Notes: generated from the letters alone by a model not told the origin. DNA of 40,296 nucleotides from a bacterium (GCA_021158465.1 JAGGUN010000025.1:1-40296); one strand, 5' to 3'. Positions 1,262 through 15,616 are shown, counted from the stretch's first letter. Translations and numbers: made by a program.

Positions 1262-1268
1262 TATGCAA

Positions 1269-1297
1269 AATGTATCACCTGGTGTTTAAATGGTCAA
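1269..1297 (-). promoter_or_regulatory. Possible promoter of the pentapeptide channel gene
   Basis: On the minus strand TTGACC (1297-1292) is followed by a 17-base spacer and TACATT (1274-1269). A start about seven bases downstream would fall at or next to the A of the ATG at 1261, which leaves no room for a Shine-Dalgarno site. The only SD-like sequence (AGGTGA) sits inside the promoter spacer. The -10 match is moderate. Confidence 0.4.
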
Positions 1298-1339
1298 GCA
1301 AATTTTTCCCTTTTCTCGCGAGACATCAAAGAAAAATGT

Positions 1340-1367
1340 TTGCAAAATCAAAAATTATTGGTATAAT
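1340..1367 (+). promoter_or_regulatory. Sigma70-like promoter of the 162-residue unknown gene
   Basis: TTGCAA (1340-1345), a 16-base spacer and a perfect TATAAT (1362-1367) lie ahead of the plus-strand gene starting at 1404, in an AT-rich stretch. The predicted transcription start is near 1374. This leaves a short leader that contains the purine-rich AGGGGAGG ribosome binding site. Confidence 0.6.
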
Positions 1368-1403
1368 ATTTTATAGTCAAGGTCTGCGAAAGAGGGGAGG
1401 AGG

Positions 1404-1892
1404 ATGGCTGGGTTCAAGCCCTGTATCTGGCGGGGTAAAAAAGATGGGCGTATAATCTGCCGTAAGATTACCCGGCACGATGTCTATCTCAACGATACCC
1501 TGATTCCGGAGGAGCTTGCCACCGCCGATGGCTTCGATGTGCATGACAACACCGTCGACCCCGAGCTCTGCGATACCTGCCCTGTCTCCTTTTCACTCTG
1601 CCGATTCGTTATATTCAAGCTCAGAATTGTTGAGGTCTACGAGTGTGAGGACGATGTTAAGGTTGACCTCTATTTGAAGGGGAAGATAAAGGGGTTGCGT
1701 GACTTTGCTCCACTGAAGATTAGAAAGGTGGAAGCAACACACGCCACCTGTAAGATCTCCGGTTTTGAACTGACACCTTCGATGATAGATATGATATGCA
1801 CGGAAGGGACTATCTGCCACGATTTCGATTCTATCGGAGCGGCAGTTAAGCGGCTCAAAGCCCGAAGGGCAAAAAAATTTAAGAACTCCTGA
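1404..1892 (+). CDS. Cysteine-rich protein of unknown function
   Basis: I do not recognise this 162-residue protein. It has nine cysteines (7, 19, 56, 59, 66, 81, 116, 132, 138), including a CDTC pair at 56-59 followed by C66. That suggests metal or Fe-S binding, but no known arrangement is matched. There is no signal peptide or membrane segment, and the C-terminus is basic (about 149-160). The ATG follows AGGGGAGGAGG closely and has a good promoter upstream, which supports expression. It converges on the endolysin gene that ends the phage-like operon and may be host DNA just outside it. Both upstream and downstream neighbours are on the opposite strand, so it is probably monocistronic. Confidence 0.65.
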   Translation: MAGFKPCIWRGKKDGRIICRKITRHDVYLNDTLIPEELATADGFDVHDNTVDPELCDTCPVSFSLCRFVIFKLRIVEVYECEDDVKVDLYLKGKIKGLRDFAPLKIRKVEATHATCKISGFELTPSMIDMICTEGTICHDFDSIGAAVKRLKARRAKKFKNS

Positions 1893-1940
1893 CAAGAATA
1901 TTATACACCCCACTTGGTTGGGAAGCAACAGGTCAGAATG

Positions 1941-2354
1941 TCAAGGATGTTTTCTTCCCCATCTTCTTCTCGGCGGAGTGGTGCGTGCATCGATATGAAC
2001 GAAATTATCCTCTGGATAGTATCCGCAACCACCATCGCCAGCAATCCTTTCCGCCAGCTCATAGAACTTTTCATACTCCATCTTGTCGGGACATCTTATA
2101 TCGAGAGCTAACCCCTCGATGTGTGCTGAATGTTTAGAGCCACCAATCGCCCTATTGTATTTTGCACAGCGACATCCCGAGTTAATATGAAGAGGAAGTC
2201 CGACAGCCTTTCGAAGCTGTTCGAACTTCCTGATGATTGCCGGCTTCAAATCTCCTTCTTGCGTCCCGAATCCACATCCGCAACGGCACCTTATCTCGCC
2301 GACCGTCAGGTGTGGAGATAGATGGTAACCGTCAGGCAGCCTCTTTGTTCCCAT
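1941..2354 (-). CDS. M15-family peptidase, phage-type endolysin
   Basis: The 137-residue protein has the metal-binding pattern of the peptidase M15 D,D-/L,D-carboxypeptidase fold: SAHIEGLALD gives H78 and D85, and FVHID gives H120, the three expected zinc ligands. There is no signal peptide, so export would depend on a holin. It is the last gene of the structural operon, beside two small membrane proteins, which is typical of a lysis cassette. Its start overlaps the preceding 109-residue gene by 23 bases. It would cleave peptide cross-links or stem peptides of peptidoglycan to release particles. A cellular peptidase is possible but less likely here. Confidence 0.85.
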   Translation of the reverse strand: MGTKRLPDGYHLSPHLTVGEIRCRCGCGFGTQEGDLKPAIIRKFEQLRKAVGLPLHINSGCRCAKYNRAIGGSKHSAHIEGLALDIRCPDKMEYEKFYELAERIAGDGGCGYYPEDNFVHIDARTTPPRRRWGRKHP

Positions 2355-2661
2355 ACTTCCGCTGATAGCTTGCCCTTACCAACCGCTCAGCAAGTTCTCT
2401 TGTGTCATCTCTGTCAGGGAGTCCTGCTGCCTCAAGGAACTTATCGACTGCCTTGTTGAACCAATATGCTATCGGGTTGTTTGGGTAGAGACTTACGAAA
2501 GCATCGGTGATGTCATCGGCGATCAGTCCCAGTTCCTTCGCCCTGTTATAGCGCTCGGTATTCTCCGCCAGCCAGGGCTTAAGATACTTCCCCACAAGAA
2601 ACCCGATAAGGAACAGGATAAGGTTAATTATTCCACTTGTAACGATAAGCTTAAACCCCAT
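2332..2661 (-). CDS. Small membrane protein of the lysis module
   Basis: This 109-residue protein has one clear membrane segment near residues 6-30 (VTSGIINLILFLIGFLVGKY). It is followed by a charged, mostly helical cytosolic region and a basic C-terminus (SYQRKYGNKEAA). It sits between a second small membrane protein and the endolysin, overlapping the endolysin by 23 bases. Size, topology and place suggest a holin or holin partner, but no family is recognised. The call rests on context. Confidence 0.55.
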   Translation of the reverse strand: MGFKLIVTSGIINLILFLIGFLVGKYLKPWLAENTERYNRAKELGLIADDITDAFVSLYPNNPIAYWFNKAVDKFLEAAGLPDRDDTRELAERLVRASYQRKYGNKEAA

Positions 2662-2703
2662 TTTTACCCCCTTGTTTATGGTATTTGTCTTTGACTGTTT
2701 TTC

Positions 2704-2976
2704 TCACCCTGCCAACCTCCAGATAACGAATACAATCCCTGAGCCGAATAGGAGTGTTATCAGTCGTTCGATTATGCCCAGCATTCTTATCTGCCCTCGG
2801 CGTTTATCAGCCTCAATTTCCAGTCTTCTGACACGCCTCATAAGACCGTTATCTCCGTTTCCTTTGAGGCACTGCTCTATCTCATCGAGTTCATCGACCA
2901 CATACTGCATAAACCGCAATAGGAGAACATCTTTGTTGTTCTCATTCAGCTTTGTCGGTATGGTGAACCTCCGCAT
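2704..2976 (-). CDS. Holin-like protein with C-terminal anchor
   Basis: The 90-residue protein has a charged helical N-terminal two-thirds with coiled-coil character (about 22-65) and one membrane segment at about 68-88 (GIIERLITLLFGSGIVFVIW). This layout is that of XhlA-type phage lysis proteins, which are short coiled coils with a C-terminal anchor that work with a holin. It follows the BppU-like gene by 9 bases and precedes the other small membrane gene by 42. Sequence homology to XhlA is inferred from layout only. Confidence 0.55.
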   Translation of the reverse strand: MRRFTIPTKLNENNKDVLLLRFMQYVVDELDEIEQCLKGNGDNGLMRRVRRLEIEADKRRGQIRMLGIIERLITLLFGSGIVFVIWRLAG

Positions 2977-2985
2977 TTTTACTCC

Positions 2986-3642
2986 CTACCTTGTTATATC
3001 CGCTTTGACCTTGACCTCTCCTTTCCAGATAGTTCTCACCGCTCCGGTGGTTTCATCTGGACCCGGAGGGAAGACAAGTTGTATATCGCCGATATATCGA
3101 AGCGGCGGGATTTCTGTCTCCGCTGCGGTCAGGGAGATTTTCCCCTCGTTCCCGCCAAGAAGCTCAATTGGCTTTTGAAGCACATATTCCGTATCGGTGT
3201 CATCCTGTTTGATAGAGAAGGTCCCGGTTGTCTCCGATATGTCCACAGGGTCGCCGTTTGCATCGTAGACGGCAAAGGTTATCTCGACACTGTCTCCCCT
3301 GAAGAACTCAAGTGGCTTTGTAGCCTCAAGTGAGGTCAGATATTTTGTCTGCTCCATCGCCAGAACCATCCCGAGTGGTGTAGCTTTGTATCGGCTATAC
3401 GGATAGTGGACACCACCGACAAAGTCATCTACTGTCGGGTCGTTCGACAAGCCAACATATACGAACTCCTCATCATTGAGAAGCTCGTCGGGAACTTCTG
3501 CACGATACCAACCATAGCCGATGCTGGTCATATCGTAGCTGCTTTCCTCCCCCGATGACAGAGCTATTACCCGCAGCGTCGGAGACAGGGTGTTGATGGG
3601 ATTACCATCACTGTCCTCGAAGTATGCACACAAATATCCCAT
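2986..3642 (-). CDS. BppU-like baseplate/receptor-binding protein
   Basis: The second half of this 218-residue protein (about 108-215) has the look of the BppU N-terminal domain of siphophage baseplates: an FFRGDSVEITFAVYDANGDP strand-turn start, then an FSIKQDDTD strand and a terminal KGEVKVKADITR strand. The first half is a separate small beta domain of unknown type (DSDGNPINTLSPTLRV...). It follows the fibre-like gene by one base and has an AGGAGG ribosome site at its ATG. The likely role is building the adsorption tip of the particle. Confidence 0.65.
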   Translation of the reverse strand: MGYLCAYFEDSDGNPINTLSPTLRVIALSSGEESSYDMTSIGYGWYRAEVPDELLNDEEFVYVGLSNDPTVDDFVGGVHYPYSRYKATPLGMVLAMEQTKYLTSLEATKPLEFFRGDSVEITFAVYDANGDPVDISETTGTFSIKQDDTDTEYVLQKPIELLGGNEGKISLTAAETEIPPLRYIGDIQLVFPPGPDETTGAVRTIWKGEVKVKADITR

Positions 3643-3643
3643 A

Positions 3644-4891
3644 TTAGTATCCTCCTATCGGATGTAAGGTTCCGAACTCATCCATCCAGAAATGCCTGCG
3701 AATTGCTGGTCTCTCCTCATATTCGACGACCAACTTCGGATGTTTTGATGTGTCAGAATGGTCAGAGGAATAAAAGGCGTTATAAGAGGGATATATCTCC
3801 GATTTGAGAACTATAAACCCATAGTTTGCCCATGTTCCGTTGACCCAGTTTTGGACCGCAACCTTGGCGTCGAATATGGCATCTTTGTGTGTTCCTACCC
3901 ACACAGTATCGAGTAGGTCGGAGTAATCTCCGCCGGCTGTTTCCCAGCTATTCGGATAATCATAACAGTTCCAAGTTGCTCCAACAGGTGGGTCATGAGT
4001 GAATATTCCTTCTACCCAGCTGTGCGTGAGCCTGTATAGTTCGTGGTTCCCTGAACCGCTACCTGCTGGATATCCGTATAGGATGAAGGTTGCCGATATG
4101 ATATTTGCTCCCGCTGGTATCCCAGAAAGGTTGAATTGAACAAGAGCTCTCTGCATCTTTTCGGAGTCGTTCTTCACTTGCATTGCCTTAAAAGAGCCAT
4201 AGCTATAAGACGGATGTTCTTGGGCAATCATTGTGTCCTTGCCTTCATCTGCATCCGGCTGGATTGTTATCGTTGGGTCGATTGTTATCGGGAAAACGGC
4301 GGTGTCGAGAAACTCCTCAGGCAAGCTAAACGATAACCAGCGTCCATCGAATATAGTCGAGGCAAGGACGGGTGAAAGCATAACATCTTCCCTGCTATCA
4401 TAAGCAGATACACCCGAGAAGGCTATCTTCCCTGCTGCAAAACAGCCCTTCTCTCTCGCTGGTCGGTGCGGATACCCAACGATCGAAAAGCGGAAATCGG
4501 CAAGAGCAGAGCGGTTCTTGAATATTACCCGCTTCTCAACACCGGTGTTCTTGACGACAAACTCAATATCCACACCATCTTTTATCTCCCGAAATAGGAT
4601 ATGCTGGTTATCGATGAGAGCAGGTTTTGTCCTGCCCAGCCCATCGATGTATAGCCCCCAGAAGCCACATTCGACTATATCCCGGATGAGCAGGAACGGT
4701 GTATTTGTCGAGCGAGGTGAAAACCAGTAGGTATATCTGTCGCCGCCGATGACGATATTGTATCGGTTGTTTGACATTGCTTGAAACTCAACAGGATAGA
4801 AATTCCCCGATTTATCTCTCCAGAACCGCCTGCGAGGAGTGATGACGAATTTATTGCCCTCTTTGTGTGTTGTCGAATTGATGATTTTCAT
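3644..4891 (-). CDS. DNRLRE-domain fibre-like protein
   Basis: The 415-residue protein has a DNRLRE-type beta domain at roughly 215-385, recognised from RALVQFNLSGIPAGANIISA, the following beta strands and a terminal VQNWVNGTW segment. Such domains occur in exported surface proteins and some phage fibres. The same short motif, RRxFWxDxxGxxxPx, occurs near the N-terminus (PRRRFWRDKSGNFYPV) and at the very C-terminus (IRRHFWMDEFGTLHPI). This points to a duplicated attachment motif. There is no signal peptide. It overlaps the hub-like gene by 4 bases. Within a virus-derived operon a tail fibre or spike is the best reading. Confidence 0.65.
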   Translation of the reverse strand: MKIINSTTHKEGNKFVITPRRRFWRDKSGNFYPVEFQAMSNNRYNIVIGGDRYTYWFSPRSTNTPFLLIRDIVECGFWGLYIDGLGRTKPALIDNQHILFREIKDGVDIEFVVKNTGVEKRVIFKNRSALADFRFSIVGYPHRPAREKGCFAAGKIAFSGVSAYDSREDVMLSPVLASTIFDGRWLSFSLPEEFLDTAVFPITIDPTITIQPDADEGKDTMIAQEHPSYSYGSFKAMQVKNDSEKMQRALVQFNLSGIPAGANIISATFILYGYPAGSGSGNHELYRLTHSWVEGIFTHDPPVGATWNCYDYPNSWETAGGDYSDLLDTVWVGTHKDAIFDAKVAVQNWVNGTWANYGFIVLKSEIYPSYNAFYSSDHSDTSKHPKLVVEYEERPAIRRHFWMDEFGTLHPIGGY

Positions 4892-6810
4892 ATCCCCTCC
4901 TGTTTCCTTGCGCGGATTGTTACCTCTGTGAGAGAATATTTTATCTGGTCTATCTGGAAGCAGGCGTCGCCTATTGTTGGATGGACGACCTTTATGAGGT
5001 CGCCCGGATAGCAGACAACTCCCTGGAGATTGGTAGCAAATGTTATGTAGGTTTGCGGAGAGCCGTAAAGCTTTTCTGCGATTCCTGATGCAGGTTCCGG
5101 GTCGATTAGCCAGCGAAGCGATAGCTCCTTCTCGATTATCTCCTCTGCACCGGGGATGACCACGGTTTTTCTCCCTCTGAACCCTTCCGAGAAATAGTCG
5201 TAGTCGTATAGGATTACAAGCCTTGTGTATACAGCAGGCTCTATCTCAACCTTTACTGTATCCTTCAGGATGATGGAGTTATCTCCTGCAGGTGGTGTAT
5301 CGTAGAAGCTCTTGAGCTCTGTTCCTGTTTTTGGTCTGGGGAATGCAGAGATCTTCCCATCGCCTCTCATAAGCAGGCGAATGCCAGTCTCCTCGAGCAA
5401 GCTGGAGACTGTTTTGCTGATATGTTCGGGCTTGATAAGCACCCTTCTTACGCCGAAGTCGGGCAGAGGTCTATCCGAGGTGAGGTTGTTTAAGCTCTGC
5501 TGGTCGATCCTGTCGTCCGTCAGTCCAGCTGCGTGCAGGAGGTATCGGATAACCTCTCGATAGTCGGCGTAAGGTTCACCTGCCGTGTGGATGACACCGT
5601 TGCAGTTGATGAATAGTTTCCCTGTTTTTCTCATGGGGGCAGGAGAGACAGTGGGGGTTACCTCCCCTTCACCCTTCTCGAATGAGCCGAAGGAATCGTC
5701 ATACCCTTCTGTGAATACACGAGAGATAACCGCATCCGCTGGCTCATCCGATGAGATGATAAATGCGAGCTGAACCTCCCTTGCAAGCTCAACCGACGGC
5801 GGGAACTCAAGCTCATACTCGCCGGTGGATTCTATGTCCAGCTGTGAGAGGATTGTATCGTGAAATCGGAAGATATATGCGGTCAGTGTGGCACCTTCTG
5901 GGAGCGATAGCTGTTCTACCTTGAAACGGATTTGAGACGGCTTGGCATCATATTCTCTTGCAGGCGTTTCCCTGAAGCCCACTATGAGCGGATTATCCTG
6001 GTCGAGCTTGGCAGAGCCATCATACCCCTCGACGAGCTTATACCAATCTGTGCTACCGTTCTTTATATCCTCGCCTTGAATACTCACCCAATCGGGGTTT
6101 GTCGGGTGGATTCCGAATACAAGCTTCCCCTTCTTTATCCTGAAACCGCAGATATCTTCCTCGTTGAACCGCTCCACATCCTCGAATCTGAACGCTTCAC
6201 CCCTCATCTTCAGCCATAGTGAATCTGTCTCCTCGATATGCCCCTTTGCACCGTATCTGGCATTTGAGGCGTCGAGTAGCACCGCAGGGATAAGGTTTCT
6301 TGCGTAGCCACGATTACACTCGCGAGCCTCCGAAACGGTATCGTGGTATCCACCGAACACGACAGGGATAACATCTCCCTCAGAGTTCGGAAATAGGACC
6401 CCATCTGGTTTCTCGGATGGGAAAAGCGCTTCAAGCTCGGGAATGCTTGCTCTTGCAGACAGCTCAAATACATACCTGTCGTAGAAGACCACCTCCCCCT
6501 TGCCTGTGAACATTTGGACGGTTTCCTCGATGCCTTCAAATGTCAGTGAAACGGTTATATCCAGTTTATCGCTTATGTGTGGGATGAAGAAGGCATCGGT
6601 CGCCTCACACCGGGCAATCTTTGTCCCGGACAGCTCAGGCAAGATGATGGAGCTCATCCTATACTCGATTACGCCAGGCTTGACAATTCCGGAACCTGTT
6701 GTTGAAAGTTTGAGTGTATCCTCTCCCGATGAGATATTGAACCTCCAGATGGGGGTTTCCCCTTCTGGTATTCCCAGCTTTTCCTGTATTGATTCAGGTA
6801 TTTCTCTCAT
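4888..6810 (-). CDS. Large tail hub-like protein
   Basis: At 640 residues this is the largest protein of the phage-like operon. It is beta-rich, with a segment IPVVFGGYHDT (about 148-158) of a type seen in tail-tip proteins. Its C-terminal third resembles baseplate hub/tail-associated proteins: a SKTVSSLLEETGIRLLMRGD strand-helix, a repeated beta segment, and a final CYPGDLIKVVHPTIGDACFQ stretch. I cannot assign a precise family. It lies after the small tail proteins and before the fibre, as hub proteins do. A purine-rich GAGG ribosome site precedes the ATG. A nozzle of a short tail is an alternative. Confidence 0.6.
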   Translation of the reverse strand: MREIPESIQEKLGIPEGETPIWRFNISSGEDTLKLSTTGSGIVKPGVIEYRMSSIILPELSGTKIARCEATDAFFIPHISDKLDITVSLTFEGIEETVQMFTGKGEVVFYDRYVFELSARASIPELEALFPSEKPDGVLFPNSEGDVIPVVFGGYHDTVSEARECNRGYARNLIPAVLLDASNARYGAKGHIEETDSLWLKMRGEAFRFEDVERFNEEDICGFRIKKGKLVFGIHPTNPDWVSIQGEDIKNGSTDWYKLVEGYDGSAKLDQDNPLIVGFRETPAREYDAKPSQIRFKVEQLSLPEGATLTAYIFRFHDTILSQLDIESTGEYELEFPPSVELAREVQLAFIISSDEPADAVISRVFTEGYDDSFGSFEKGEGEVTPTVSPAPMRKTGKLFINCNGVIHTAGEPYADYREVIRYLLHAAGLTDDRIDQQSLNNLTSDRPLPDFGVRRVLIKPEHISKTVSSLLEETGIRLLMRGDGKISAFPRPKTGTELKSFYDTPPAGDNSIILKDTVKVEIEPAVYTRLVILYDYDYFSEGFRGRKTVVIPGAEEIIEKELSLRWLIDPEPASGIAEKLYGSPQTYITFATNLQGVVCYPGDLIKVVHPTIGDACFQIDQIKYSLTEVTIRARKQEGI

Positions 6811-6827
6811 ATTCTACCTCTTCGCTC

Positions 6828-7217
6828 TTATTCTTCCTGCTTCTCGATGAGGGTAAGTTCGATGTCGAACGACAGCGGGTTACCGTGGTGGTTCGTGATA
6901 ATCGGTTTATCCTCGAGGAAAACGGGTATTCCGAGCAGTGTTTCGTCGAGGTCGAGGTAAAAGGATACTGCTCCACCGGAGATTGTGTATGCAAGTATCT
7001 GGAGTAGAGGTGAGAACTCTTCTTCGCTCATCCCGACGAACCTGAGGTGGAATACCCTACGCGTTTTACCGAGTTTGTATGTCTGCAGAACCCCTGAGTC
7101 CGTTTTCTGCACCTTGACATTTGCGATGAAATCTATCACTGTAGGTAGCTCTGGCAGAACGGGGAAGAGATACTCGAATGCCGGTTCCTCTGTGCGGTAT
7201 ATCTTAACCTGTGCCAT
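6828..7217 (-). CDS. Small tail protein, possibly distal-tail-like
   Basis: This 129-residue, beta-rich protein lies between the tail-terminator-like gene (overlap of one base) and the hub-like gene (17-base gap). That is the slot normally filled by tail tube, tape measure and distal-tail genes. Features include a hydrophobic FEYLFPVLPELPTVIDF segment and a C-terminal LSFDIELTLIEKQEE strand. I do not recognise its family. A distal-tail (Dit-like) or tube-like role is inferred only from position and size. Confidence 0.5.
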   Translation of the reverse strand: MAQVKIYRTEEPAFEYLFPVLPELPTVIDFIANVKVQKTDSGVLQTYKLGKTRRVFHLRFVGMSEEEFSPLLQILAYTISGGAVSFYLDLDETLLGIPVFLEDKPIITNHHGNPLSFDIELTLIEKQEE

Positions 7218-7660
7218 CAGTTGCTCCTTTCGAGGGTTTCTCTTGCGACAAACTCCGCCTTGAGGGAACCTATCGCCCTTTTCTCCTGTGGGGGTGCCTC
7301 AACCGTTATCTCCTTTATGCTGCTCGACTCAAACGCCCCTTCGAGCGTCGGATGTGAGATAATGTACTCTGCAATCGTCGAGAGGACAGAGAGTATATCC
7401 CTCTCCTGAATGCTCCTGTTCCAGTGTCCGTGTCGGAAGATGATGCTGTATGTGAGCCTATGCCTGAGAACGCTCTTCTTCCCGAGAGAGGAAGAGAACT
7501 CAGGTTTGTCCCCCTCGAACCTCAGGAATATCGCACCCTTGTGAAGCACTGTCGCCTCCGACTCCGCTCGAAAGACGCGCTTGACTGTCGGTATCCCTCT
7601 CGTCGCGGTCAGTACTCCCCGGAATATATGTTCCCTTGCATTGTCATAGAATGTTCCCAT
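7217..7660 (-). CDS. Tail terminator/completion-like protein
   Basis: The 147-residue protein has the pattern of tail-terminator proteins of the gpU/Gp17 type: an N-terminal helix, a central beta sheet (RLTYSIIFRHGHWN), a helix (ILSVLSTIAEYIISHP) and a final SLKAEFVARE strand. It lies 3 bases after the gp36-type connector gene, where this gene stands in long-tailed phages. It would cap the tail or join it to the neck. Its presence without recognisable tube or tape-measure genes is unexpected. Confidence 0.6.
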   Translation of the reverse strand: MGTFYDNAREHIFRGVLTATRGIPTVKRVFRAESEATVLHKGAIFLRFEGDKPEFSSSLGKKSVLRHRLTYSIIFRHGHWNRSIQERDILSVLSTIAEYIISHPTLEGAFESSSIKEITVEAPPQEKRAIGSLKAEFVARETLERSN

Positions 7661-7663
7661 TTC

Positions 7664-8176
7664 TCACTCCTCGTGATACTCTTCGTCTCCATCCTCAGAG
7701 AGTTGTCTGGATACGCCGTCGTAGCCGGAGTATTGTGAGAACGATGACCTCCTCGTTATTACCCGTGGTCCTGTTGTCTCTATAAGCTTCTTCTGTCCGG
7801 GTAGGGTAACCCGCGAGATACTCTTCAGGAACTCATCTGCCTCCTTTTTCCAGGCAACCGCCTTTTGGGGAAGCGAGCCGGAATCGTAGAGGGAGAGAGC
7901 TATCTGGTATGCCGCCTCCCTCGATGATATCCTGCCAAGAATTATACGGGAAAGTCGTGCCTCTGGTGTATCCCGTTCGAGTGCCGAGATAGGGTTATCG
8001 AAGAAGCGTCCGAGATAGGAAAGTATATACCCCTCTGCTTCGCGTACGAAATCAGAGACCTCTTCCTTTGATATTGCGAACTCGTCCTCGTTCGGGTTGC
8101 CGAGCTTAACCCTACCATCGACTGTCCGAAGTAGTCTGAGTACATCCTCTATCTGTGTGAAGTAGAACTCACCCAT
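7664..8176 (-). CDS. Head-tail connector, Mu gp36-like
   Basis: The 170-residue, mainly helical protein resembles the Gp36/DUF1320 connector family. It has an acidic helical start, a VREAEGYILSYL helix with a proline-containing loop, then an ARLSRIILGRISSREAAYQI helix, a WKKEADEFLKSISRV helix and a disordered acidic C-terminus. The gene follows the signal-peptide protein after a 46-base gap holding a strong hairpin. Together with the Mu-type portal and protease it supports a Mu-like head origin. It would form the adaptor ring beneath the portal. Confidence 0.7.
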   Translation of the reverse strand: MGEFYFTQIEDVLRLLRTVDGRVKLGNPNEDEFAISKEEVSDFVREAEGYILSYLGRFFDNPISALERDTPEARLSRIILGRISSREAAYQIALSLYDSGSLPQKAVAWKKEADEFLKSISRVTLPGQKKLIETTGPRVITRRSSFSQYSGYDGVSRQLSEDGDEEYHEE

Positions 8177-8195
8177 TTTCTCTCCTTACGGTTAG

Positions 8196-8219
8196 AAGGG
8201 GGAGTGTAGACTCCCCCTT
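8196..8219 (-). terminator. Strong intergenic hairpin, possible partial terminator
   Basis: A perfect 10-base-pair stem, AAGGGGGAGT (8196-8205) with ACTCCCCCTT (8210-8219), encloses the four-base loop GTAG. It lies between the signal-peptide gene and the connector gene. On the minus strand, the direction of transcription, the stem is followed only by CTAAC and no real U-tract. It may therefore be a processing or attenuation site rather than a full terminator. Confidence 0.45.
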
Positions 8220-8222
8220 TGT

Positions 8223-8798
8223 TCATTTGACATAGAAGTATAGGTACTCGGAGAAGTTCGCCGTGTCCGAGACCGCTCTTATAACGACTGCGGTATCCAC
8301 GAGAAGCCTGACAACCGGCGGATACTCCACTGCCGCAGTATCACAGAGTAACTGAACAAGAAATACAGATGCCGTATCGATCCCAGATATAACGAGCGTA
8401 TCCTCCGTGCTACCGGATGAGAACTCGTCTTTCCCCCAGCCGAGGAGCTGTGTCGTGGAATAGGCGCTGTTCCAGTTTGCGGTGTCCGATTCGATGGAAT
8501 CGAGCCTCGCATCCACTGCATCGAGCGAGCAGGAGAACTCTGCGGTGTCGACAAACGCCGATAATGTGTCCGAGGAGAATCTTCCTGAAACGAAGAGCGA
8601 ATCAACAGCGACAGCTCCTGTTATGTTCCAGTATCCGGTGGAGTCGTTCGATACTCTGTTACCGCTTTTCCCCTCGAGGAAATCGTTGTTCTTTATCCGC
8701 CAGAAGTATCCGTCGAACCAGCCCTTCGTGGAGCAGAAAAGGGGTCCTCCGAGTAGCAGGACCGTGGTCAGGATAACCAGAATCCTTTTCATCTTCAC
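8223..8798 (-). CDS. Exported protein inside the capsid gene block
   Basis: The 191-residue protein begins with a signal peptide (basic MKMKR, hydrophobic core about 6-21, C22). The lipobox PLFC is not canonical. The mature part is beta-rich and serine/aspartate-rich with repeated DSLFVSG, DTLSAFVDT and DTAVVIRAVSDT strands. It also has a TANWNSAYSTTQLLGWG segment like the NWN(T/S)AY repeats of tail fibres and related surface proteins. It lies 6 bases after the major capsid gene and before the hairpin. Export would remove it from particle assembly, so it may act on the envelope of the producing cell. The function is unknown. Confidence 0.65.
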   Translation of the reverse strand: MKMKRILVILTTVLLLGGPLFCSTKGWFDGYFWRIKNNDFLEGKSGNRVSNDSTGYWNITGAVAVDSLFVSGRFSSDTLSAFVDTAEFSCSLDAVDARLDSIESDTANWNSAYSTTQLLGWGKDEFSSGSTEDTLVISGIDTASVFLVQLLCDTAAVEYPPVVRLLVDTAVVIRAVSDTANFSEYLYFYVK

Positions 8799-8804
8799 TC
8801 TCCT

Positions 8805-9746
8805 TTATGAGTTGACATCCTTGATGAGGAATCCTGCTCCGTCAAATGTTACCTTGAAGTCGTAGTAATCCTCGTTCCTGAACCAGTTTGTCGTTGTGTC
8901 CTCGTCGTACCAGCGTGTTGTTACAGGGTATCCTGCCACCTCGAAGGTGTATCCGAAAGCAGGCACACGGACAGAACGGGGGTTCTCCGGCACATAAGCG
9001 AGGACAACATTATCTTTCCAGATGTCGGAGAAGCTCTCGCCTGTCCCCGATGTATAGACGCCCATACCGACATAGATATTTGGGATGTCAAGCACCGCCT
9101 CGAGTATCTCGGTCGTCACGACACCAGCCTGCGAATACTTTATCCTATCGAGGATCTGAGGCGATTTGACGAGCGACTCATACGCCGATATGCCGAGTAT
9201 GCAGCTGTTCGGGTATCTGCCGATCAGGTTTCGGACGGCTGATTTTGCTTCTTGGATGTCGCCAATCGGGTCGTAGTCGGCTCCTGATGGGTTATCCCAC
9301 TTCTCTGTCGATGTGAGTGTGCGGTGGTTTGAGTGTGTGTATGTCGATGTGTCCTGTAGAACCGTTGCTATCTGGTATTCGAGCTTCAGTCTGATTGTCT
9401 CCTGGATCCCCCTGACGATGTCCTGCTCGAGGTCGAATACCTCCTGAGCTTCTTCCAGCTCCGCATCGTCGGCGCCGTCCTTTATCGAGTATCTCAGACA
9501 GTTGAATGTCCCTGTCGATATCTCGACCGGGTATCTCGTCTGTGTTCCTGCCCGGATGCCACGGATGATGGAGTCATCTGGAACGAAGAAGTTATCCCTA
9601 CCGAACTTGATATATTTACCGCTCTTCTTTGCCACCTTAACAATGGGCAGTATCTTTGTTCCGACGAATGCTGGGTTGGAGTATCCCTGGGATATCTCCG
9701 TCAGAACGGGGTCAACCCCTGCCCTCAATGATTCCAGTCTTGACAT
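8805..9746 (-). CDS. Major capsid protein
   Basis: The 313-residue protein fits an HK97-fold major capsid protein of the Mu/GpE-like kind. It has an N-terminal arm (ISQGYSNPAFVGTKILPIV), a DNFFVPDD segment, a long helical spine (AQEVFDLEQDIVRGIQETIR), and a peripheral domain with NLIGRYPNSCILGISAYESL. The C-terminal strands include SVRVPAFGYTFEV and TTRWYDEDTTTNWFRNEDYYDF. Order protease, decoration protein, capsid is the usual head cassette. Thrifty spacing (18 bases to the decoration gene) suggests it is still under selection. Confidence 0.85.
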   Translation of the reverse strand: MSRLESLRAGVDPVLTEISQGYSNPAFVGTKILPIVKVAKKSGKYIKFGRDNFFVPDDSIIRGIRAGTQTRYPVEISTGTFNCLRYSIKDGADDAELEEAQEVFDLEQDIVRGIQETIRLKLEYQIATVLQDTSTYTHSNHRTLTSTEKWDNPSGADYDPIGDIQEAKSAVRNLIGRYPNSCILGISAYESLVKSPQILDRIKYSQAGVVTTEILEAVLDIPNIYVGMGVYTSGTGESFSDIWKDNVVLAYVPENPRSVRVPAFGYTFEVAGYPVTTRWYDEDTTTNWFRNEDYYDFKVTFDGAGFLIKDVNS

Positions 9747-9764
9747 AGCTTTCCCTCCTTTCGA

Positions 9765-10118
9765 TTAAGCTGTTGGATGGGCGAATAGATAGACGGTTGC
9801 GACATCGCCGGTGGAGTATGCTCGCTTGACCCTGCCAAGGATGTGATCGCCTGTGGTAGCGGTTACTGCCTTTCCTGAGGCGTCGCTTGCCACATAGTCG
9901 CCAGCAGACAGACCTCCTTCTCCCACATCGACGGGAGCTGCACCAAACAGTATTACCGTTGCATCCTGACTGTTTGCCTCACTGTCGAATAGAAGGACAC
10001 CCCAGGCATCTCCACCTGCTGTCGGGTACAACCCGTCGTAGGTTACAAACCTCTTCCCAGAAAGGTCTGATCCACCAATCTTTATTGTGTCTGTCATAAG
10101 CGAACGAAAGCTTGCCAT
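9765..10118 (-). CDS. Capsid decoration protein
   Basis: This 117-residue beta protein is of the small head-decoration type (DUF2190-like). It is glycine-rich, with GGLSAGDYVASDASGKAV, an HILGRVKRAYSTGDVATVYL segment and a hydrophobic end. It starts 5 bases after the protease/scaffold gene and lies directly before the capsid gene, the standard place for stabilising proteins. It probably binds the outer capsid lattice after expansion. Confidence 0.65.
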   Translation of the reverse strand: MASFRSLMTDTIKIGGSDLSGKRFVTYDGLYPTAGGDAWGVLLFDSEANSQDATVILFGAAPVDVGEGGLSAGDYVASDASGKAVTATTGDHILGRVKRAYSTGDVATVYLFAHPTA

Positions 10119-10123
10119 CTTGC

Positions 10124-11014
10124 TTACCTCCCTTCTTTGGTTTCAAGGACCTGTTTCACAGCATCCGGGAAGGGGAGACCTTCCCTCTCGGATAAGAGTT
10201 TTGCCCTCTCCCATATCTCCTCTCGCTCCTCGTTTACCTCACGCTCAGGTGCGGGGTTGAAGAACTCGAACCTCTGGGAAGGCTTATTTTCTACAAGCCT
10301 TGTCTTCTCTGAGAGGTCGATAACACCCATCTGTCTTATCCTTTCGAGAATGTCTAAGAAAGCATCCTTGAGCGATGAGAACTCACGGTTTTCGGAGAGC
10401 TTCACCATCTCGCCTTCCGCCTCAATGACCCTTTTGATATCCTCGTTTATGACGGGTGGAAACACCCTTTTCCCCTGTTGCAATCTGCGAAGGGCTATCT
10501 TCCTGGTGATCTCGGAGAGTAGCTTTGCCTTCTTGGTCTCCTCCAGCCGTTTTCTTGTCTCTGTGTCGGAATATGTTATCGTTTCCATATTCTTCACGAC
10601 GGGGTTGTTTGTGAGCGCGACAGCGAATAGTGCCCAGCTTCCATCCTCCAGTTGAGCAATCTCTGCTGAGAGGTATTTGTATTGCTTGTCCTCGATGAGC
10701 TTCCAGCCGAGTGAATTCGGTACAAGCTTTCCAACAAGCCGCATACCATCCTCAGGAACTGACTCTGTCCAGAGCGATTTGAGCCATCCCTTGCTTGCTG
10801 GGTTCGGGTCGTCGTGTTCCTCCTTCAGATAGACCTCAAGCCCGGTCTTCCTGTTCCTGAAATTGTTCACTATCTCACGGAGCATCTCGGGTGTTATGTT
10901 CACATCACCGTATCTTTCCGAGTGATAGCTTCCTGTCCGCATTATCTCAACATTGATCCCCTGTTCGCCCTCGCTCGATAGCTCCGCCAGAACGAGGTAG
11001 CGATAGTTTTCCAT
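10124..11014 (-). CDS. Mu I-like head maturation protease with scaffold
   Basis: The 296-residue protein resembles the phage Mu I family. The N-terminal protease part (about 1-150) has RTGSYHSERYGDVNITPEML, LEVYLKEEHDD, ASKGWLKSLW and a LTNNPVVKNM segment. A charged, helical scaffold region follows (about 150-296), rich in Glu, Lys and Arg. In this family the C-terminal part is often also made separately from an internal start as scaffold; several Met codons occur there, but no choice can be made from sequence. It overlaps the portal gene by one base. It would process the prohead. Confidence 0.8.
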   Translation of the reverse strand: MENYRYLVLAELSSEGEQGINVEIMRTGSYHSERYGDVNITPEMLREIVNNFRNRKTGLEVYLKEEHDDPNPASKGWLKSLWTESVPEDGMRLVGKLVPNSLGWKLIEDKQYKYLSAEIAQLEDGSWALFAVALTNNPVVKNMETITYSDTETRKRLEETKKAKLLSEITRKIALRRLQQGKRVFPPVINEDIKRVIEAEGEMVKLSENREFSSLKDAFLDILERIRQMGVIDLSEKTRLVENKPSQRFEFFNPAPEREVNEEREEIWERAKLLSEREGLPFPDAVKQVLETKEGR

Positions 11015-12312
11015 TACTCTTCTCCTTTCTTTGAGGTTTCATTGATCGGGAGTCCGAACAGCTCCATAAGCCTGCGGCGGTTTATCTCCCAGTCTGCTCC
11101 AGTGAAGCGGTCCTTCCTCACTATCTCGAGCACAACCTCACGCAGAAGTTCCAGCTTGTCCGTTTCCACACCTGCGGTCGAGATCAAAGGTGGGGTCTGT
11201 CTCTCGCCGAAGTTGAAGCGGACAATATCCGGTATCACATACCGGTTTATATGCCTTATGAATAGCTCCTGATATTGCTCGAGCGAGAGAAGGAACAGCT
11301 GATATTTCTGCTTTGCCTCTGCGTAAGTTCCGACGCCTGTCTGGACGATCGCCTGCTCAGGGATGAGCATTCCACGGATAATCTGCACATCAAGATACTG
11401 CAAAAGCTCCTTGAACTCCTCTCCGCGCCCTCTATCTTCAAGTAGTGTAACATCCCATTTGGGTATATCTGTCATCCGCTCGAACCCGGCATCGTCCGCT
11501 TCCACATACCTTTCGGACGGTAGAGCGACCGCTCCGCCCTCGACAAAAGCCTTCCTGACGGATAGCGCTTTCCTCTGGTTGGCGAGAGTGAGCCTTTCCG
11601 CTTTGTCCTCCCTCGACTCCGTTTCCTCCTCGGAGACATCGCTCGGCTTCACCGTGGGGTATCGGATAATCGGAACACCGTTCCCGTGCCGTTCGAGGTA
11701 CCTGCACCAGTATTGTAGTATCTGGTTCTTCCTGAACCAGGCATCGTAGATTACCTTGTAGCCTGATTCACCGTAGAAGTTCCCGTACCGTTTCCCCCTT
11801 GTTACCACGAGGCAATACTCGGGTGTGATGGTTTGGGCTGGATCGGAGTTGTAGGTTATCCCCATAAAATGCCCGTTTGTGGAGTTGATCTGGGTAAGCT
11901 GTGGGTCAAGGTCCTTCATACGGGAGATGACAACCTTGCCCGTTCTCTCATCGTAGGTCCATAGCTTCTCGAACGCTGCGAAACCGAACGGTATTATCTC
12001 CTCAAACGTTCTTTCGATAAGCTCCTGCCAGAAGATGTCGAGCGATTCCATAACGAATAAGTCTATCTCGCTGTCTCCGCTCGAGCGGGCGATCTGCGGC
12101 TTTATCCTCACGAGCGGTGAGACGATAAACTGCTTGGCGAACCGGACCATATTGTCCGAATCCATCTTCTTGAGGAGAGGGATGGTCAGCCTGTGCGGGT
12201 CAGGATAAAATCTGCCAAGGAACTGCTTCTCATATCTTGTCTTTTCTGCCTCCAGTATCGCAGGGGATGATTGAAACCCTTGCCTGCTTTTCTTCTTGCC
12301 AAATAGTCTCAT
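11014..12312 (-). CDS. Portal protein, DUF935/Mu gp29-like
   Basis: The 432-residue protein matches the DUF935 portal family. Supporting segments are DNMVRFAKQFIVSPLVRIKP, EEIIPFGFAAFEKLWTYDE, a clip/wing region containing YNSDPAQTITPEYCLVVT, and a C-terminal FIRHINRYVIPDIVRFNFGE. The family forms the dodecameric DNA channel at one capsid vertex and docks the terminase. The start overlaps the large terminase by 4 bases and the end overlaps the protease by 1, which implies coupled translation. The length is somewhat shorter than Mu gp29 (about 510 residues). Confidence 0.8.
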   Translation of the reverse strand: MRLFGKKKSRQGFQSSPAILEAEKTRYEKQFLGRFYPDPHRLTIPLLKKMDSDNMVRFAKQFIVSPLVRIKPQIARSSGDSEIDLFVMESLDIFWQELIERTFEEIIPFGFAAFEKLWTYDERTGKVVISRMKDLDPQLTQINSTNGHFMGITYNSDPAQTITPEYCLVVTRGKRYGNFYGESGYKVIYDAWFRKNQILQYWCRYLERHGNGVPIIRYPTVKPSDVSEEETESREDKAERLTLANQRKALSVRKAFVEGGAVALPSERYVEADDAGFERMTDIPKWDVTLLEDRGRGEEFKELLQYLDVQIIRGMLIPEQAIVQTGVGTYAEAKQKYQLFLLSLEQYQELFIRHINRYVIPDIVRFNFGERQTPPLISTAGVETDKLELLREVVLEIVRKDRFTGADWEINRRRLMELFGLPINETSKKGEE

Positions 12313-13655
12313 ATTACCACTACCTTCCCTTTTTTCGTTTTGAAAAGATTTGCCTCCTCCTCGGGCGGTTCAGGGTGTTCTGGCACGAACCCAGGAGGAT
12401 TTCTTTTTGGTGGTCTTATCGGGAATCGGTATGACCTCTCGTATCCGAGTGCGTCTGAGATGTGTGTCAGTTCTGGATTGGTTGTCTTGTCAATTGTTCC
12501 TGTCTGCTCCTTGTAGACGACCTGGAGAAGGTCTCTTATAAGGTATCGGCACCAGGGGGCGATCTTTGTCCGGCGGAGGCTCCTATTCGTTGCGTTGACC
12601 CTCTCTGTGACATCCGGATTCCTCCTTTTGTATAGAACCGTGAACCCAAATTCACGCTTGAGTATCTCGATATTGGATAGGTTCGAGCTTGTACTTCTCG
12701 CAGCTCCAGTCGCATCCGGGTAGATAGAAAGCGTGTAACCTTTGAACCTTTTTCTTATCTCACGCCCCATCTCCCAGCTGTTCGAGTTTCGCAGGTATAT
12801 CTCATCGACGACCCAGAGCTCATCCCCTACATCCTGTGTGACCGTCGCAGTCATCGGATTCACATTGAAGTCCATCCCGATATGGAGCGGAATGTCGGGC
12901 AGGAGTCGCACCTCCGACGAAACATTCTTCTCCATCGAGAACTCGAAATACACCCTCCCTGTGGCAAGCTCGTTAAACCTGCCGTGGATGTATCTCTCTG
13001 CGTATTTCTCATCAAGGGCGGCGAGCAGATTCTCCCTGTATCCCTTTGGAAGATATGTGTTCTCGAGGGTGGAAGAGAAGACTACACCAAACCTCTCCTT
13101 CTTTGTGGTGGGGTCAATGAATAATCGGTATATCCATGAAGAGAAATCCCCGGGGTTGCTTGTGAAGAAGCCGACCCTTTTAGGGATATGCGGTAATCGA
13201 AGGCGGGACACAAGGAGATAGAATATCTGCTCGTCGACATCCACTGCCTCGTCTATGTAAAAGAAACCGAGGTTCAAACTTTTCAGGTTCTCATCCCCAA
13301 GGTGCCTGAACAGGATGACGGAGCCGTTGACGAGTTCGAGCATCGTATCTGTCTTGGAATATGCCCTGACAATTGAGTCTGGTGTCAGCTCACGGAACGT
13401 TCTCATTGTTGTGTCCCGAAGCTGAGGGAACGAATTCCTCGCCACAAGCCCAACATTCCCTGGATACATCGATGCGAGCAGGAGCGACTTCACACATCCT
13501 GCGATGGTCTTTCCTGCTCCCCAGCCACCGATATAGCCAAAGAAATCGAACCGCCTGTCCATCCTCAAGAACTCCTTCTGCTTCGGCAAAGGGAGAAACC
13601 TGTCGAGCTTCGGCGTCGAAGGCGAATCTATGGTAAAGCTATTTTTCATCATCAC
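12309..13655 (-). CDS. Terminase large subunit
   Basis: This 448-residue packaging motor has both catalytic domains. The ATPase carries Walker A GGWGAGKT (43-50) and Walker B FFYIDE with D135/E136. The RNase H-like nuclease carries HIGMDFNVNP with D262, VVDEIYL with D284, and IYPDATGAARS with D313. All key residues are present and the frame is intact, so packaging activity is plausible. It overlaps the small subunit by 17 bases. It pumps DNA through the portal and cuts it. The packaging mode (headful or site-specific) cannot be told from sequence alone, and that question decides whether host DNA is packaged. Confidence 0.93.
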   Translation of the reverse strand: MMMKNSFTIDSPSTPKLDRFLPLPKQKEFLRMDRRFDFFGYIGGWGAGKTIAGCVKSLLLASMYPGNVGLVARNSFPQLRDTTMRTFRELTPDSIVRAYSKTDTMLELVNGSVILFRHLGDENLKSLNLGFFYIDEAVDVDEQIFYLLVSRLRLPHIPKRVGFFTSNPGDFSSWIYRLFIDPTTKKERFGVVFSSTLENTYLPKGYRENLLAALDEKYAERYIHGRFNELATGRVYFEFSMEKNVSSEVRLLPDIPLHIGMDFNVNPMTATVTQDVGDELWVVDEIYLRNSNSWEMGREIRKRFKGYTLSIYPDATGAARSTSSNLSNIEILKREFGFTVLYKRRNPDVTERVNATNRSLRRTKIAPWCRYLIRDLLQVVYKEQTGTIDKTTNPELTHISDALGYERSYRFPIRPPKRNPPGFVPEHPEPPEEEANLFKTKKGKVVVI

Positions 13656-14037
13656 CTTCCAAATTAAACCGTAGCCTAATATCTACTGGACCGCTTGTCT
13701 CTTCTGCGGAGTGCAGTTCGTATAGCTTGCAGCTCCGCTCGATTATGTCTGATATGAGCTTGATTGCGGCAATTCTGGTGCGAAAATCATCCGGTGGAAC
13801 AGAATCAAGACTGTCCCAGGAGATCTTCAGAAGCCTCTCGAGTCTTTCAAGGTACCTTGCCTTGAGTGCAACCTTGTCAAGCCTCTCAACCCTTCTCCTA
13901 CCCTCTTTTTTTGCGTTCCCTACCACCTTTGATACACTCTGTAACCTGAGCCCGAGAACCTCTGATATCTCCTCAGGAGTGTATCCCTTCAGCGAGAGTT
14001 CCTTTATGATTCTGTGTTTTTCTTTCTTCTGCTTCAT
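13639..14037 (-). CDS. Terminase small subunit-like DNA-binding protein
   Basis: The 132-residue protein starts with a helix-turn-helix (about 13-38, GYTPEEISEVLGLRLQSVSK) and a basic linker. Then come amphipathic oligomerisation helices (ARYLERLERLLKISWDSL and RTRIAAIKLISDIIERSCKLYEL) and an acidic tail. This is the usual build of small terminase subunits, which recognise packaging DNA and recruit the large subunit. It is the first gene of the operon, 43 bases from the -10 box, with AAGGGA before its ATG. A regulator role is an alternative, but the overlap with the large terminase gene favours packaging. Confidence 0.75.
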   Translation of the reverse strand: MKQKKEKHRIIKELSLKGYTPEEISEVLGLRLQSVSKVVGNAKKEGRRRVERLDKVALKARYLERLERLLKISWDSLDSVPPDDFRTRIAAIKLISDIIERSCKLYELHSAEETSGPVDIRLRFNLEGDDEK

Positions 14038-14052
14038 ATTCCCTTTTCTTCA

Positions 14053-14071
14053 GATTAGGCATTACCTAATC
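14053..14071. promoter_or_regulatory. Operator-like palindrome O1 at the structural promoter
   Basis: GATTAGG CATTA CCTAATC is a perfect 7-base inverted repeat with a 5-base spacer. It sits just downstream of the minus-strand -10 box, at about +2 to +20, where a bound repressor would block transcription of the terminase-to-endolysin operon. The XRE gene across the divergent region is the obvious ligand. Confidence 0.65.
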
Positions 14072-14079
14072 CAACACCA

Positions 14080-14107
14080 ATTATATAAACTTTCTCCCGT
14101 TTGTCAA
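14080..14107 (-). promoter_or_regulatory. Consensus promoter of the phage-like structural operon
   Basis: On the minus strand a perfect TTGACA (14107-14102), a 16-base spacer and a perfect TATAAT (14085-14080) precede the small terminase gene. The predicted start near 14073 abuts palindrome O1. A promoter this strong directly on the structural genes implies that it is normally held off by the repressor. Confidence 0.75.
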
Positions 14108-14157
14108 GGAAAAAAATTAGACAAAATTGAATTTTTTTAAAAAATATCTCTAAAAGC

Positions 14158-14186
14158 TTGACAAGAGATAGGTAGTTCCTTATATT
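14158..14186 (+). promoter_or_regulatory. Promoter of the XRE repressor gene
   Basis: A perfect TTGACA (14158-14163), a 17-base spacer and TATATT (14181-14186) lie ahead of the repressor. They are followed by AGGGGA (14201-14206), eight bases before the ATG at 14215. It stands back to back with the structural promoter, with 50 bases between the two -35 boxes. Confidence 0.7.
14167..14183. promoter_or_regulatory. Operator-like imperfect palindrome O2 in the repressor promoter
   Basis: GATAGG TAGTT CCTTAT has half-sites similar to those of O1 and the same 5-base spacing. It lies in the spacer and start of the -10 box of the repressor promoter, a suitable place for autorepression. The weaker symmetry suggests lower affinity than O1. 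Confidence 0.5.
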
Positions 14187-14214
14187 TGTTGAGGTATTAA
14201 AGGGGAAATCTATT

Positions 14215-14649
14215 ATGGTAAGGCGTGTATCGGAGCTTGGGAGGCGGATTCTTCATCGGATGATAGATGTTGGGATAAAGCATCAGAAGGAGCTGGCGGA
14301 GAGGGTTGGGTTATCGCCTGCTTCGATAAACAATTTTATCACGGGTGAGGCGACACCGAGGGCGGCGACGCTTGTCAGGCTTTCTGAGGTTCTTGATTGC
14401 AGTGTGGATTATCTGCTTGGCAGGGTGGATGTTCCGAAGCCTGAGGAGGCGGTATCGCGTGATGTCGGGCGGTTCCTTCTTGGAGACGAGGATATCCGTT
14501 CCCTTTTGAGGCATAGGTTTTCTGATGAGGAGTTATCCGAGCTCGAGGTGATGTTCCGGCTCTTCAATTCTCCTGGGATTACCAGGGATGATCTCGAGAT
14601 GATTGTACGCATCGTTGAGGGTATAGTGGAGATGAGGAAGGGGAGATAG
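14215..14649 (+). CDS. XRE-family repressor of the structural operon
   Basis: The 144-residue protein has a Cro/CI-type helix-turn-helix at about 18-72, including QKELAERVGLSPASINNFIT, then TLVRLSEVLDCSVDYLLGR, the common end of this domain. A helical C-terminus (about 85-144) is probably for dimerisation. There is no S24 peptidase (LexA/CI self-cleavage) domain, so direct RecA-triggered cleavage is not expected. It is transcribed away from the structural operon. Its promoter and that of the operon each carry a similar palindrome, which supports repression and autorepression. It ends only 15 bases from the convergent stress-protein gene. Operator binding is inferred. Confidence 0.85.
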   Translation: MVRRVSELGRRILHRMIDVGIKHQKELAERVGLSPASINNFITGEATPRAATLVRLSEVLDCSVDYLLGRVDVPKPEEAVSRDVGRFLLGDEDIRSLLRHRFSDEELSELEVMFRLFNSPGITRDDLEMIVRIVEGIVEMRKGR

Positions 14650-14664
14650 GCAAGTGGCGGTTAT

Positions 14665-15108
14665 CTATTTCCCTTTGACTGCCAGCACGGGGATATTTGC
14701 TTTTCTCAGCACCCTTTCGGCGACGGAGCCTATCATAAAATGTTCCAGTCCTGTTTCGCCGTGTGTTCCCATAACGATTATATCGATATTCTCGCGCTCG
14801 GCGAATCGGATTATCTCATCGCACGGTTTGCCGTTTGATAGCACTGCTTCGTATTCGACATCTTTTGCTTCATTGCCGACGAATTTTTTCACCATCGGGA
14901 TGAAGTTTTCCTGCATATAGCTCCACATCTCGTCGATTTTGAATCCGCCTGCGACGAAGATTGGGTTGAGGGCTCTCTCCTCGCTGAATACATGCTGGAT
15001 GAAGAGTTTTGCACCGAATTTCTCTGCCAGAAGCAGAGCATACATAAATGCTGGTCGTGAGTTATCGGAGAAATCTGTCGGATACAGTATCTTCTTTATC
15101 GCTTTCAT
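14665..15108 (-). CDS. Universal stress protein, UspA family
   Basis: The 147-residue single Usp domain begins MKAIKKILYPTDFSDNSRPA and ends ANIPVLAVKGK. It contains the nucleotide-binding pattern IIVMGTHGETGLEHFMIGSVAERVL (G-2x-G-9x-G(S) type), which suggests ATP binding. I chose the start at 15108 because AAAGGAGC lies just upstream. A longer frame reaching 15195 would overlap the TPR gene and add a non-conserved tail. It is the last of fifteen closely spaced genes starting at parA, 19 bases after the TPR gene. A role in stress or energy-limitation survival is general for the family; the partner is unknown. Confidence 0.88.
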   Translation of the reverse strand: MKAIKKILYPTDFSDNSRPAFMYALLLAEKFGAKLFIQHVFSEERALNPIFVAGGFKIDEMWSYMQENFIPMVKKFVGNEAKDVEYEAVLSNGKPCDEIIRFAERENIDIIVMGTHGETGLEHFMIGSVAERVLRKANIPVLAVKGK

Positions 15109-15127
15109 CTTTGCTCCTTTTATTTTC

Positions 15128-15592
15128 TTATTCCACAATCTTTTTGAACTCCTCGTCATCCCGGAGGGGGTTGAAGGCTGGGTTTTCTTTGGCAAGTTGC
15201 TTGAGTTTTGGGTCTAATTTAATTGCCTTGGATAGGTTTTTCAAGGCTTCTTCCCTGTTACCTTTTATAGAATATATGATAGCTTTGCCAAACCAAGCCT
15301 CGGCGAAATCAGGATTTATCTCGATAGCCTTGTTGTAAGCCTCGATTGCTTCTTCATATCGTTCGAGTCCGCCAAGAGCAACTCCTTTGTTACACCAAGC
15401 CTCGGCGTAATCAGGTTTTATCTCGATAGCCTTGTTGAAAGCCTCGATTGCTTCCCCAAAGTAGCCAAGCTTGAAAAGCTCAACACCGTTGTTATACCAT
15501 TTTTCTGCTTCGGCTGGCATCTCTGTTTCCTGCGCGGAGACTGGGCAACTCAAAGCAGCAAAAACGAGAAATGCTAAAACTATCCTTGTCAT
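15128..15592 (-). CDS. Exported TPR-repeat protein
   Basis: The 154-residue protein has a signal peptide (MTRIVLAFLVFAALSCPVSA, probably cut near AQE) and three tetratricopeptide repeats, about 29-62, 63-96 and 97-130. Each carries the AEAWxxxGxxxxxxxxxxEA pattern followed by NKAIEIxPD. TPRs bind protein partners, here in the periplasm or outside. It lies 24 bases after V-ATPase subunit D and before the stress protein, so it may be co-transcribed. No enzymatic domain is present. Confidence 0.85.
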   Translation of the reverse strand: MTRIVLAFLVFAALSCPVSAQETEMPAEAEKWYNNGVELFKLGYFGEAIEAFNKAIEIKPDYAEAWCNKGVALGGLERYEEAIEAYNKAIEINPDFAEAWFGKAIIYSIKGNREEALKNLSKAIKLDPKLKQLAKENPAFNPLRDDEEFKKIVE

Positions 15593-15616
15593 TTTTCCCT
15601 TCTTGGTGAAGTGGTT

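Follow-up and report, generated by a model that had tools for sequence, protein, structure and literature searches.

A compact phage-particle operon held at one site in two species of Zixibacteria, with features of a domesticated, gene transfer agent-like locus

Gene content of the locus

The window analyzed here, a stretch of 40296 bp from a Zixibacteria genome (GCA_021158465.1), is a complete contig of an assembly of 2.04 Mb in 54 contigs that is 97.6% complete. Positions 1941-14649 of the window are occupied by a phage-particle locus of 17 intact genes, which extends from the endolysin gene at the left to the end of the divergent repressor gene at the right (Table 1). Sixteen genes are located on the minus strand, and the repressor alone is encoded on the plus strand. 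The span is 97.8% coding, with intergenic gaps mostly shorter than 20 bp and several overlaps. The encoded proteins comprise the repressor, both terminase subunits, Mu-type portal, protease, cement protein, capsid protein, connector- and terminator-like proteins, fiber, holin-like protein and endolysin.

Table 1. Genes and control elements of the phage-particle locus
Feature	Coordinates	Strand	Evidence
cI/XRE-type repressor, 144 aa	14215..14649	+	PF01381 E 7e-12, phrog_8 E 9e-16
Repressor promoter, TTGACA-17-TATATT	14158..14186	+	11/12 consensus; kept in sister species
Second operator-like site, ATAGG-N5-CCTTA	14168..14182	.	inside repressor promoter; putative role
Structural-operon promoter, TTGACA-16-TATAAT	14080..14107	-	12/12 consensus; top site in 1200-15700; kept in sister species
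Operator-like perfect palindrome, TTAGG-N5-CCTAA	14055..14069	.	downstream of structural promoter; sole exact match in window
Terminase small subunit (TerS), N-terminal HTH	13639..14037	-	PF06056 (Terminase_5) E 0.007, HTH_23 E 0.008; upstream of TerL
Terminase large subunit (TerL)	12309..13655	-	PF04466 E 3.6e-14, phrog_2 E 1.4e-39
Mu-type portal	11014..12312	-	PF06074 Portal_Mu E 4.3e-29
Mu I-like head protease/scaffold	10124..11014	-	PF10123 Mu-like_Pro E 7.9e-12, phrog_328 E 1e-11
Cement/decoration protein	9765..10118	-	phrog_673 E 6e-15; PF09956 E 0.003
Major capsid protein	8805..9746	-	phrog_1005 E 1.8e-79; solved relative 3bjq E 1.4e-36
Protein without family match, perhaps head or tail appendage	8223..8798	-	signal-peptide-like start
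Probable head-tail connector	7664..8176	-	position alone; no match
Probable tail terminator/stopper	7217..7660	-	sister copy vs phrog_4204 tail terminator, E 0.02, full length
Possible distal tail component	6828..7217	-	position; no match
Possible tail hub/tip, largest protein, 640 aa	4888..6810	-	position
Fiber-like protein, disaggregatase-repeat/CBM96 domain	3644..4891	-	PF06848 E 6e-12, PF24517 E 2e-8
Phage protein without assigned function	2986..3642	-	phrog_1084 E 4e-12
Small protein, one likely membrane helix	2704..2976	-	sequence; no family match
Holin-like small membrane protein	2332..2661	-	N-terminal membrane helix; phrog_6918 holin E 0.33 only
Endolysin, peptidase M15	1941..2354	-	PF08291 (Peptidase_M15_3) E 8.6e-23, phrog_894 E 1.8e-28

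The first-pass annotation of this DNA had listed all essentials of a DNA-filled particle as present and open. Family matches bear this out for TerL, portal, protease, cement protein, capsid and endolysin, which are open, tightly packed and located where that annotation had placed them; the translation of TerL contains the Walker A motif (GGWGAGKT) and the nuclease aspartates. Chance similarity for the core genes is ruled out by E-values down to 1e-79. The assignment of TerS is more tentative and relies on the weak HTH_23/Terminase_5 match, which covers residues 4-62 and is kept in the sister species described below; the connector and terminator are assigned by position and a single match. The repressor consists of the HTH only and lacks an S24 peptidase domain.

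The product of 4888-6810, labeled "tail tip" earlier, is a possible tail hub or tip by position; searches of Pfam, PHROGs, NCBIfam, PDB sequences and 50,697 phage records yielded no significant homolog of this protein. Four proteins of the tail region yielded no match in a tblastn search against the same number of phages, and the AlphaFold models of the products of 4888-6810 and 6828-7217, built from two-sequence alignments, were unusable (mean pLDDT 30 and 39, respectively). Given that no tape-measure, tube or sheath gene was recognized in the locus using Pfam and PHROGs, we infer a short-tailed particle. The protein encoded at 8223-8798 opens with a signal-peptide-like segment, which is unusual in virion proteins and, here, lies inside the head gene block.

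Flanks and mobility genes

At the right edge, 15 bp past the repressor stop, lies usp, with which a V-ATPase operon ends. This operon is conserved in the class, and the adjacency of V-ATPase D and Usp recurs in several other genera, which identifies the right flank as host DNA. At the left, only 1.9 kb of sequence, with two genes, separates the endolysin gene from the contig end. For one of these, a hypothetical gene at 1404-1892, the class contains no relative; the other, a pentapeptide/ion-channel gene at 83-1261, which ends 83 bp from the contig end, has distant relatives only. Nor did synteny locate the left junction, as the genera of the class that carry Usp show no conserved gene after it. 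Thus, the earlier statement that ordinary host genes abut the locus on both sides stands for the right side (Usp and V-ATPase) but not for the left; because the window is the whole contig, host flanking on the left is unproven, which is the chief limitation on every inference made here.

In the product of 83-1261, pentapeptide repeats are joined to a two-helix ion-channel domain. Several proteins of the class are distantly related to it, and contig C42 of genome G003 encodes more than one of them. On the other side of the locus, the TPR gene between V-ATPase D and usp (15128-15592) consists of similar repeat units and shows 77% amino acid identity, with a dN/dS of 0.40, between the two species compared below.

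No integrase, serine recombinase, transposase, early gene or replication gene was found within the 40296-bp window. The assembly encodes two tyrosine recombinases, host enzymes of the XerC/XerD type, both on contig C48 beside hslVU and deoC. No resolvase-type (PF00239) or rve-type (PF00665) recombinase was detected in the assembled genome, in searches that produced control matches in 10 and 6 of 14 genomes, respectively. Likewise, the left 2 kb and the right junction share no direct repeat of at least 10 bp, and no att-like repeat was found. The lack of integration genes noted in the first-pass annotation is accordingly confirmed within the locus and, as regards three recombinase families, in the whole assembly, XerC/XerD excepted.

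These observations bear on the principal alternative, namely, that the locus belongs to an ordinary temperate prophage, with the integration and early genes located left of the contig end or unassembled, and that it was inherited as such or represents related phages at the same attachment site. The early genes could indeed lie beyond the point where the contig stops, and the repressor is phage-like. Conversely, the assembly lacks a phage-type tyrosine, serine or rve recombinase, and no flanking repeat of at least 10 bp was found.

Conservation and selection in a sister species

The genome of candidate division Zixibacteria 4484_93, which is 80% complete and represents the one further species of the genus that has been sampled, contains the same operon, collinear and at the same Usp junction. 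One contig (C108) matches the window from 10974 to about 2500 with 89-90% DNA identity, and another (C78) carries TerL, TerS, the repressor, a short spacer and then usp, that is, the same insertion point. Fifteen genes were recovered, none with a stop codon; the only two unrecovered genes, those for portal and endolysin, both fall in contig gaps. In both species, the repressor gene adjoins terS, with no early genes between them. Relatives of the portal and capsid proteins are absent from 15 other genomes of the class, so that the operon was probably gained before the split of the genus.

Around the shared junction, the spacer between the repressor gene and usp is 15 bp long in the window (14650-14664) and about 90 bp long in the sister species (L163:1941-2031), an A-rich stretch having been lost or gained. 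In the window, usp and the TPR gene are adjacent; in the sister contig C78, the interval between them (L163:2492-4633) contains a DNA methyltransferase gene (N6_N4_Mtase) split over two frames and, beside it, a gene whose product belongs to no recognized family and may be a restriction enzyme.

Divergence in this species pair was estimated by the Nei-Gojobori method with Jukes-Cantor correction for 15 genes of the locus and 21 of the host. The pooled dS was 0.402 for the phage genes and 0.406 for the host genes (gene-wise Mann-Whitney p 0.85), and the pooled dN/dS was 0.166 and 0.121, respectively. The capsid gene is the most constrained of the phage genes (dN/dS 0.031), and both terminase genes are under strong constraint (TerS 0.084, TerL 0.076). 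The repressor is 93% identical to the sister copy at the amino acid level (dN/dS 0.135), the 8223..8798 protein is 96% identical and the 640-aa protein 91%, whereas the fiber is the fastest evolving (dN/dS 0.37, 69% identity). GC and GC3 of the locus equal the host values; codon usage is distinguishable from that of the host (RSCU correlation 0.83 versus 0.94 in host-host splits). A decaying prophage, already doubted in the earlier annotation given the intact frames, is ruled out by the 15 stop-free sister genes and the low dN/dS.

Two host genes adjacent to the locus, usp (14665-15195) and the gene for V-ATPase subunit D (15617-16246), show a dS of 0.06, compared to about 0.4-0.5 elsewhere, as if this stretch had recently been exchanged by homologous recombination.

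The simplest reading of the comparison is that the operon was located beside usp in the common ancestor of the two species and has been under selection since. Both signs of domestication proposed in the earlier annotation, location at the same place and low dN/dS, were found, and the sequences support a domesticated, vertically inherited locus. The case for vertical inheritance rests on one species pair, since the genus is represented by just two genomes, too few for a tree. Independent arrival of two related phages would require a coincidental match to host divergence and the absence of gene swaps, and a locus-wide dS equal to that of the host with no such swaps is unlike mosaic, independently acquired prophages. 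A prophage would, in turn, account for the rapid divergence of the fiber, as in active phages, and for the incompletely host-like codon usage. All things considered, we regard the prophage as the main rival, plausible but less likely than domestication.

Long-term purifying selection on capsid, lysis and fiber genes would fit any useful particle, including a domesticated one with a different job, for instance in killing or as a DNA-filled, PBSX-type decoy; PBSX packages DNA without delivering it (PMC12946183). However, the strong constraint on both terminase subunits speaks against this possibility, and, with tail sheath and tube unrecognized in Pfam and PHROGs, there is no known contractile killing machine; we consider such a particle unlikely.

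Capsid-forming PICI satellites carry integrase and capsid genes and are not known to carry lysis genes. The present locus shows the opposite pattern for two of these features, with no integrase and an endolysin. A capsid-encoding satellite that relies on a helper for tails or mobility would be compatible with the small size, the possession of its own capsid and terminase, and the unrecognized long tail; but the fiber and lysis genes are retained, neither an integrase nor a satellite regulator was found, no candidate helper was noticed, and the locus occupies a single fixed site and co-diverges with the host, all of which makes a satellite very improbable. Both the killing or decoy particle and the satellite are less likely than either the gene transfer agent (GTA)-like or the prophage reading.

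Control region

The 177-bp interval between the repressor gene and terS contains two divergent sigma-70-type promoters, each with an operator-like site nearby. The half-sites of the palindrome at 14055-14069 are invariant between the two species, whereas its 5-bp spacer differs. The site at 14168-14182 is invariant as well; it has two mismatches to the palindrome, a level at which chance matches are common. This arrangement suggests that the repressor directly controls its own gene and the particle genes. Temperate phages usually have early genes opposite the repressor, whereas here terS occupies that place in both species, which counts against an ordinary prophage.

Proposed function and significance

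We assign a probability of roughly one half to the explanation that the locus derives from a domesticated phage, is inherited vertically and works like a GTA. That the locus resembles a GTA was also the proposal of the first-pass annotation; domestication and vertical inheritance are borne out by the shared site, equal dS and low dN/dS, and GTA function is plausible. Being known from its genes alone, the locus is properly called GTA-like rather than a GTA. More tentatively, it might be an independently domesticated GTA of Zixibacteria, short-tailed, with a Mu-type head and a single operon under one phage-type repressor, kept throughout the life of the genus.

Under the GTA-like scenario, a domesticated phage remnant would have been fixed beside usp before the two sampled species split, retaining the full set of functions for assembling, filling and releasing a small capsid, with no recognized means of excision or self-replication. 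The cI-type repressor would hold down the consensus sigma-70 promoter that directly drives the genes from terS through endolysin. Upon relief of repression in some cells, capsids would assemble on the Mu-type portal, be filled by the terminase and receive the fiber together with a short tail or adsorption apparatus, after which holin and endolysin would lyse the cell. Because there is no replicating phage genome, the packaged DNA would be mainly host chromosome, as in a GTA. Repressor action on the operators, particle production, and packaging and delivery of host DNA are predictions of this scenario. The HTH of TerS, conserved between the species, argues for specific packaging and, hence, against GTA function.

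Very few lineages have GTAs whose genes are known: Alphaproteobacteria, Brachyspira and, as a podovirus-like candidate, Faecalibacterium (PMC9662315, PMC12946183). The present findings suggest that the two species have retained a tamed virus, perhaps for transferring their own DNA. If so, this would be another independently tamed phage, from an uncultured candidate phylum, making capsid domestication a recurrent outcome, and a very simple version of a GTA, with one repressor, one promoter and one operon. The combination of the same site with a dS equal to that of the host would then provide a genomic test usable on MAGs. If the locus is a prophage instead, its intact retention over a dS of 0.4 also calls for explanation.

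Comparison with known systems

GTAs have been defined by structural proteins derived from Caudoviricetes, encapsidation of mostly random host DNA, full endogenization in the host genome, a locus that is not fully packaged due to limited head size, mostly vertical inheritance with host co-diversification, and DNA delivery (PMC9662315). In the present locus, terminase, portal, protease and capsid belong to Caudoviricete families; co-diversification with the host is seen on one species pair, with the same site and equal dS; and, as to endogenization, the right edge is fixed at Usp in two species and the left edge is the contig end. In the literature searched, which gave partial coverage, Zixibacteria are not reported to have a GTA or a prophage that has been studied.

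The locus resembles Mu-like (transposable) phages in its Portal_Mu, Mu I-type protease and capsid families, and the tblastn matches of the capsid include RcapMu and other small prophage-type phages. Unlike in Mu-like phages, transposase, sheath, tube and tape measure are unrecognized here, and TerL belongs to a non-Mu group (phrog_2), with Oceanospirillum phage GJ44 as the best phage match. The genome contains no rve domain (PF00665, the transposase family covered), and the edges show no repeats of at least 10 bp. A prophage of Candidatus Kapaibacterium sp. Ch6 (CP058732) encodes a capsid protein 40% and a cement protein 36% identical to those of the locus; no other locus protein was matched, and this prophage has many extra phage genes, with the packaging genes on the opposite strand. 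Within it (L131:3579-11442), the terminase and portal-like genes are opposite in strand to those for protease and capsid, and a DNA methyltransferase-like gene with a ParB-like N-terminus lies beside these genes. A close-pattern scan of 2.9 million viral contigs in IMG/VR identified no free relatives of the capsid, portal or 640-aa protein; TerL has many relatives there, 30-38% identical, that share no other gene of the locus.

RcGTA is long-tailed in morphology. Portal and protease of the present locus are of Mu-like families, unlike those of RcGTA and CcGTA, with which it shares the organization of a vertically inherited structural cluster (PMC6854486, PMC9632790, PMC9662315). Absence of the N-terminal DNA-binding domain has been proposed as a feature of GTA-type TerS, and RcGTA TerS lacks it (PMC6854486), as does that of FpGTA (PMC12946183), whereas the TerS described here retains an HTH, a difference that favors a prophage.

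In layout, the nearest parallel is FpGTA of Faecalibacterium (PMC12946183), with which the locus shares about 10-16 kb of structural genes, namely TerS, TerL, portal, scaffold and capsid together with fiber and lysis genes, as well as, within the window, the absence of replication genes, together with short-tail-type proteins and genus-wide presence. FpGTA is arranged in two operons and the present locus in one; for FpGTA, particles and packaging of about 9 kb of host DNA have been observed (PMC12946183), whereas the present locus is known from genes. In control, the nearest parallel is CcGTA, which is under the cI/LexA-like repressor RogA (PMC9632790); RogA works via the activators GafYZ, in contrast to the present locus, where the gene for the repressor directly adjoins the operon of structural genes.
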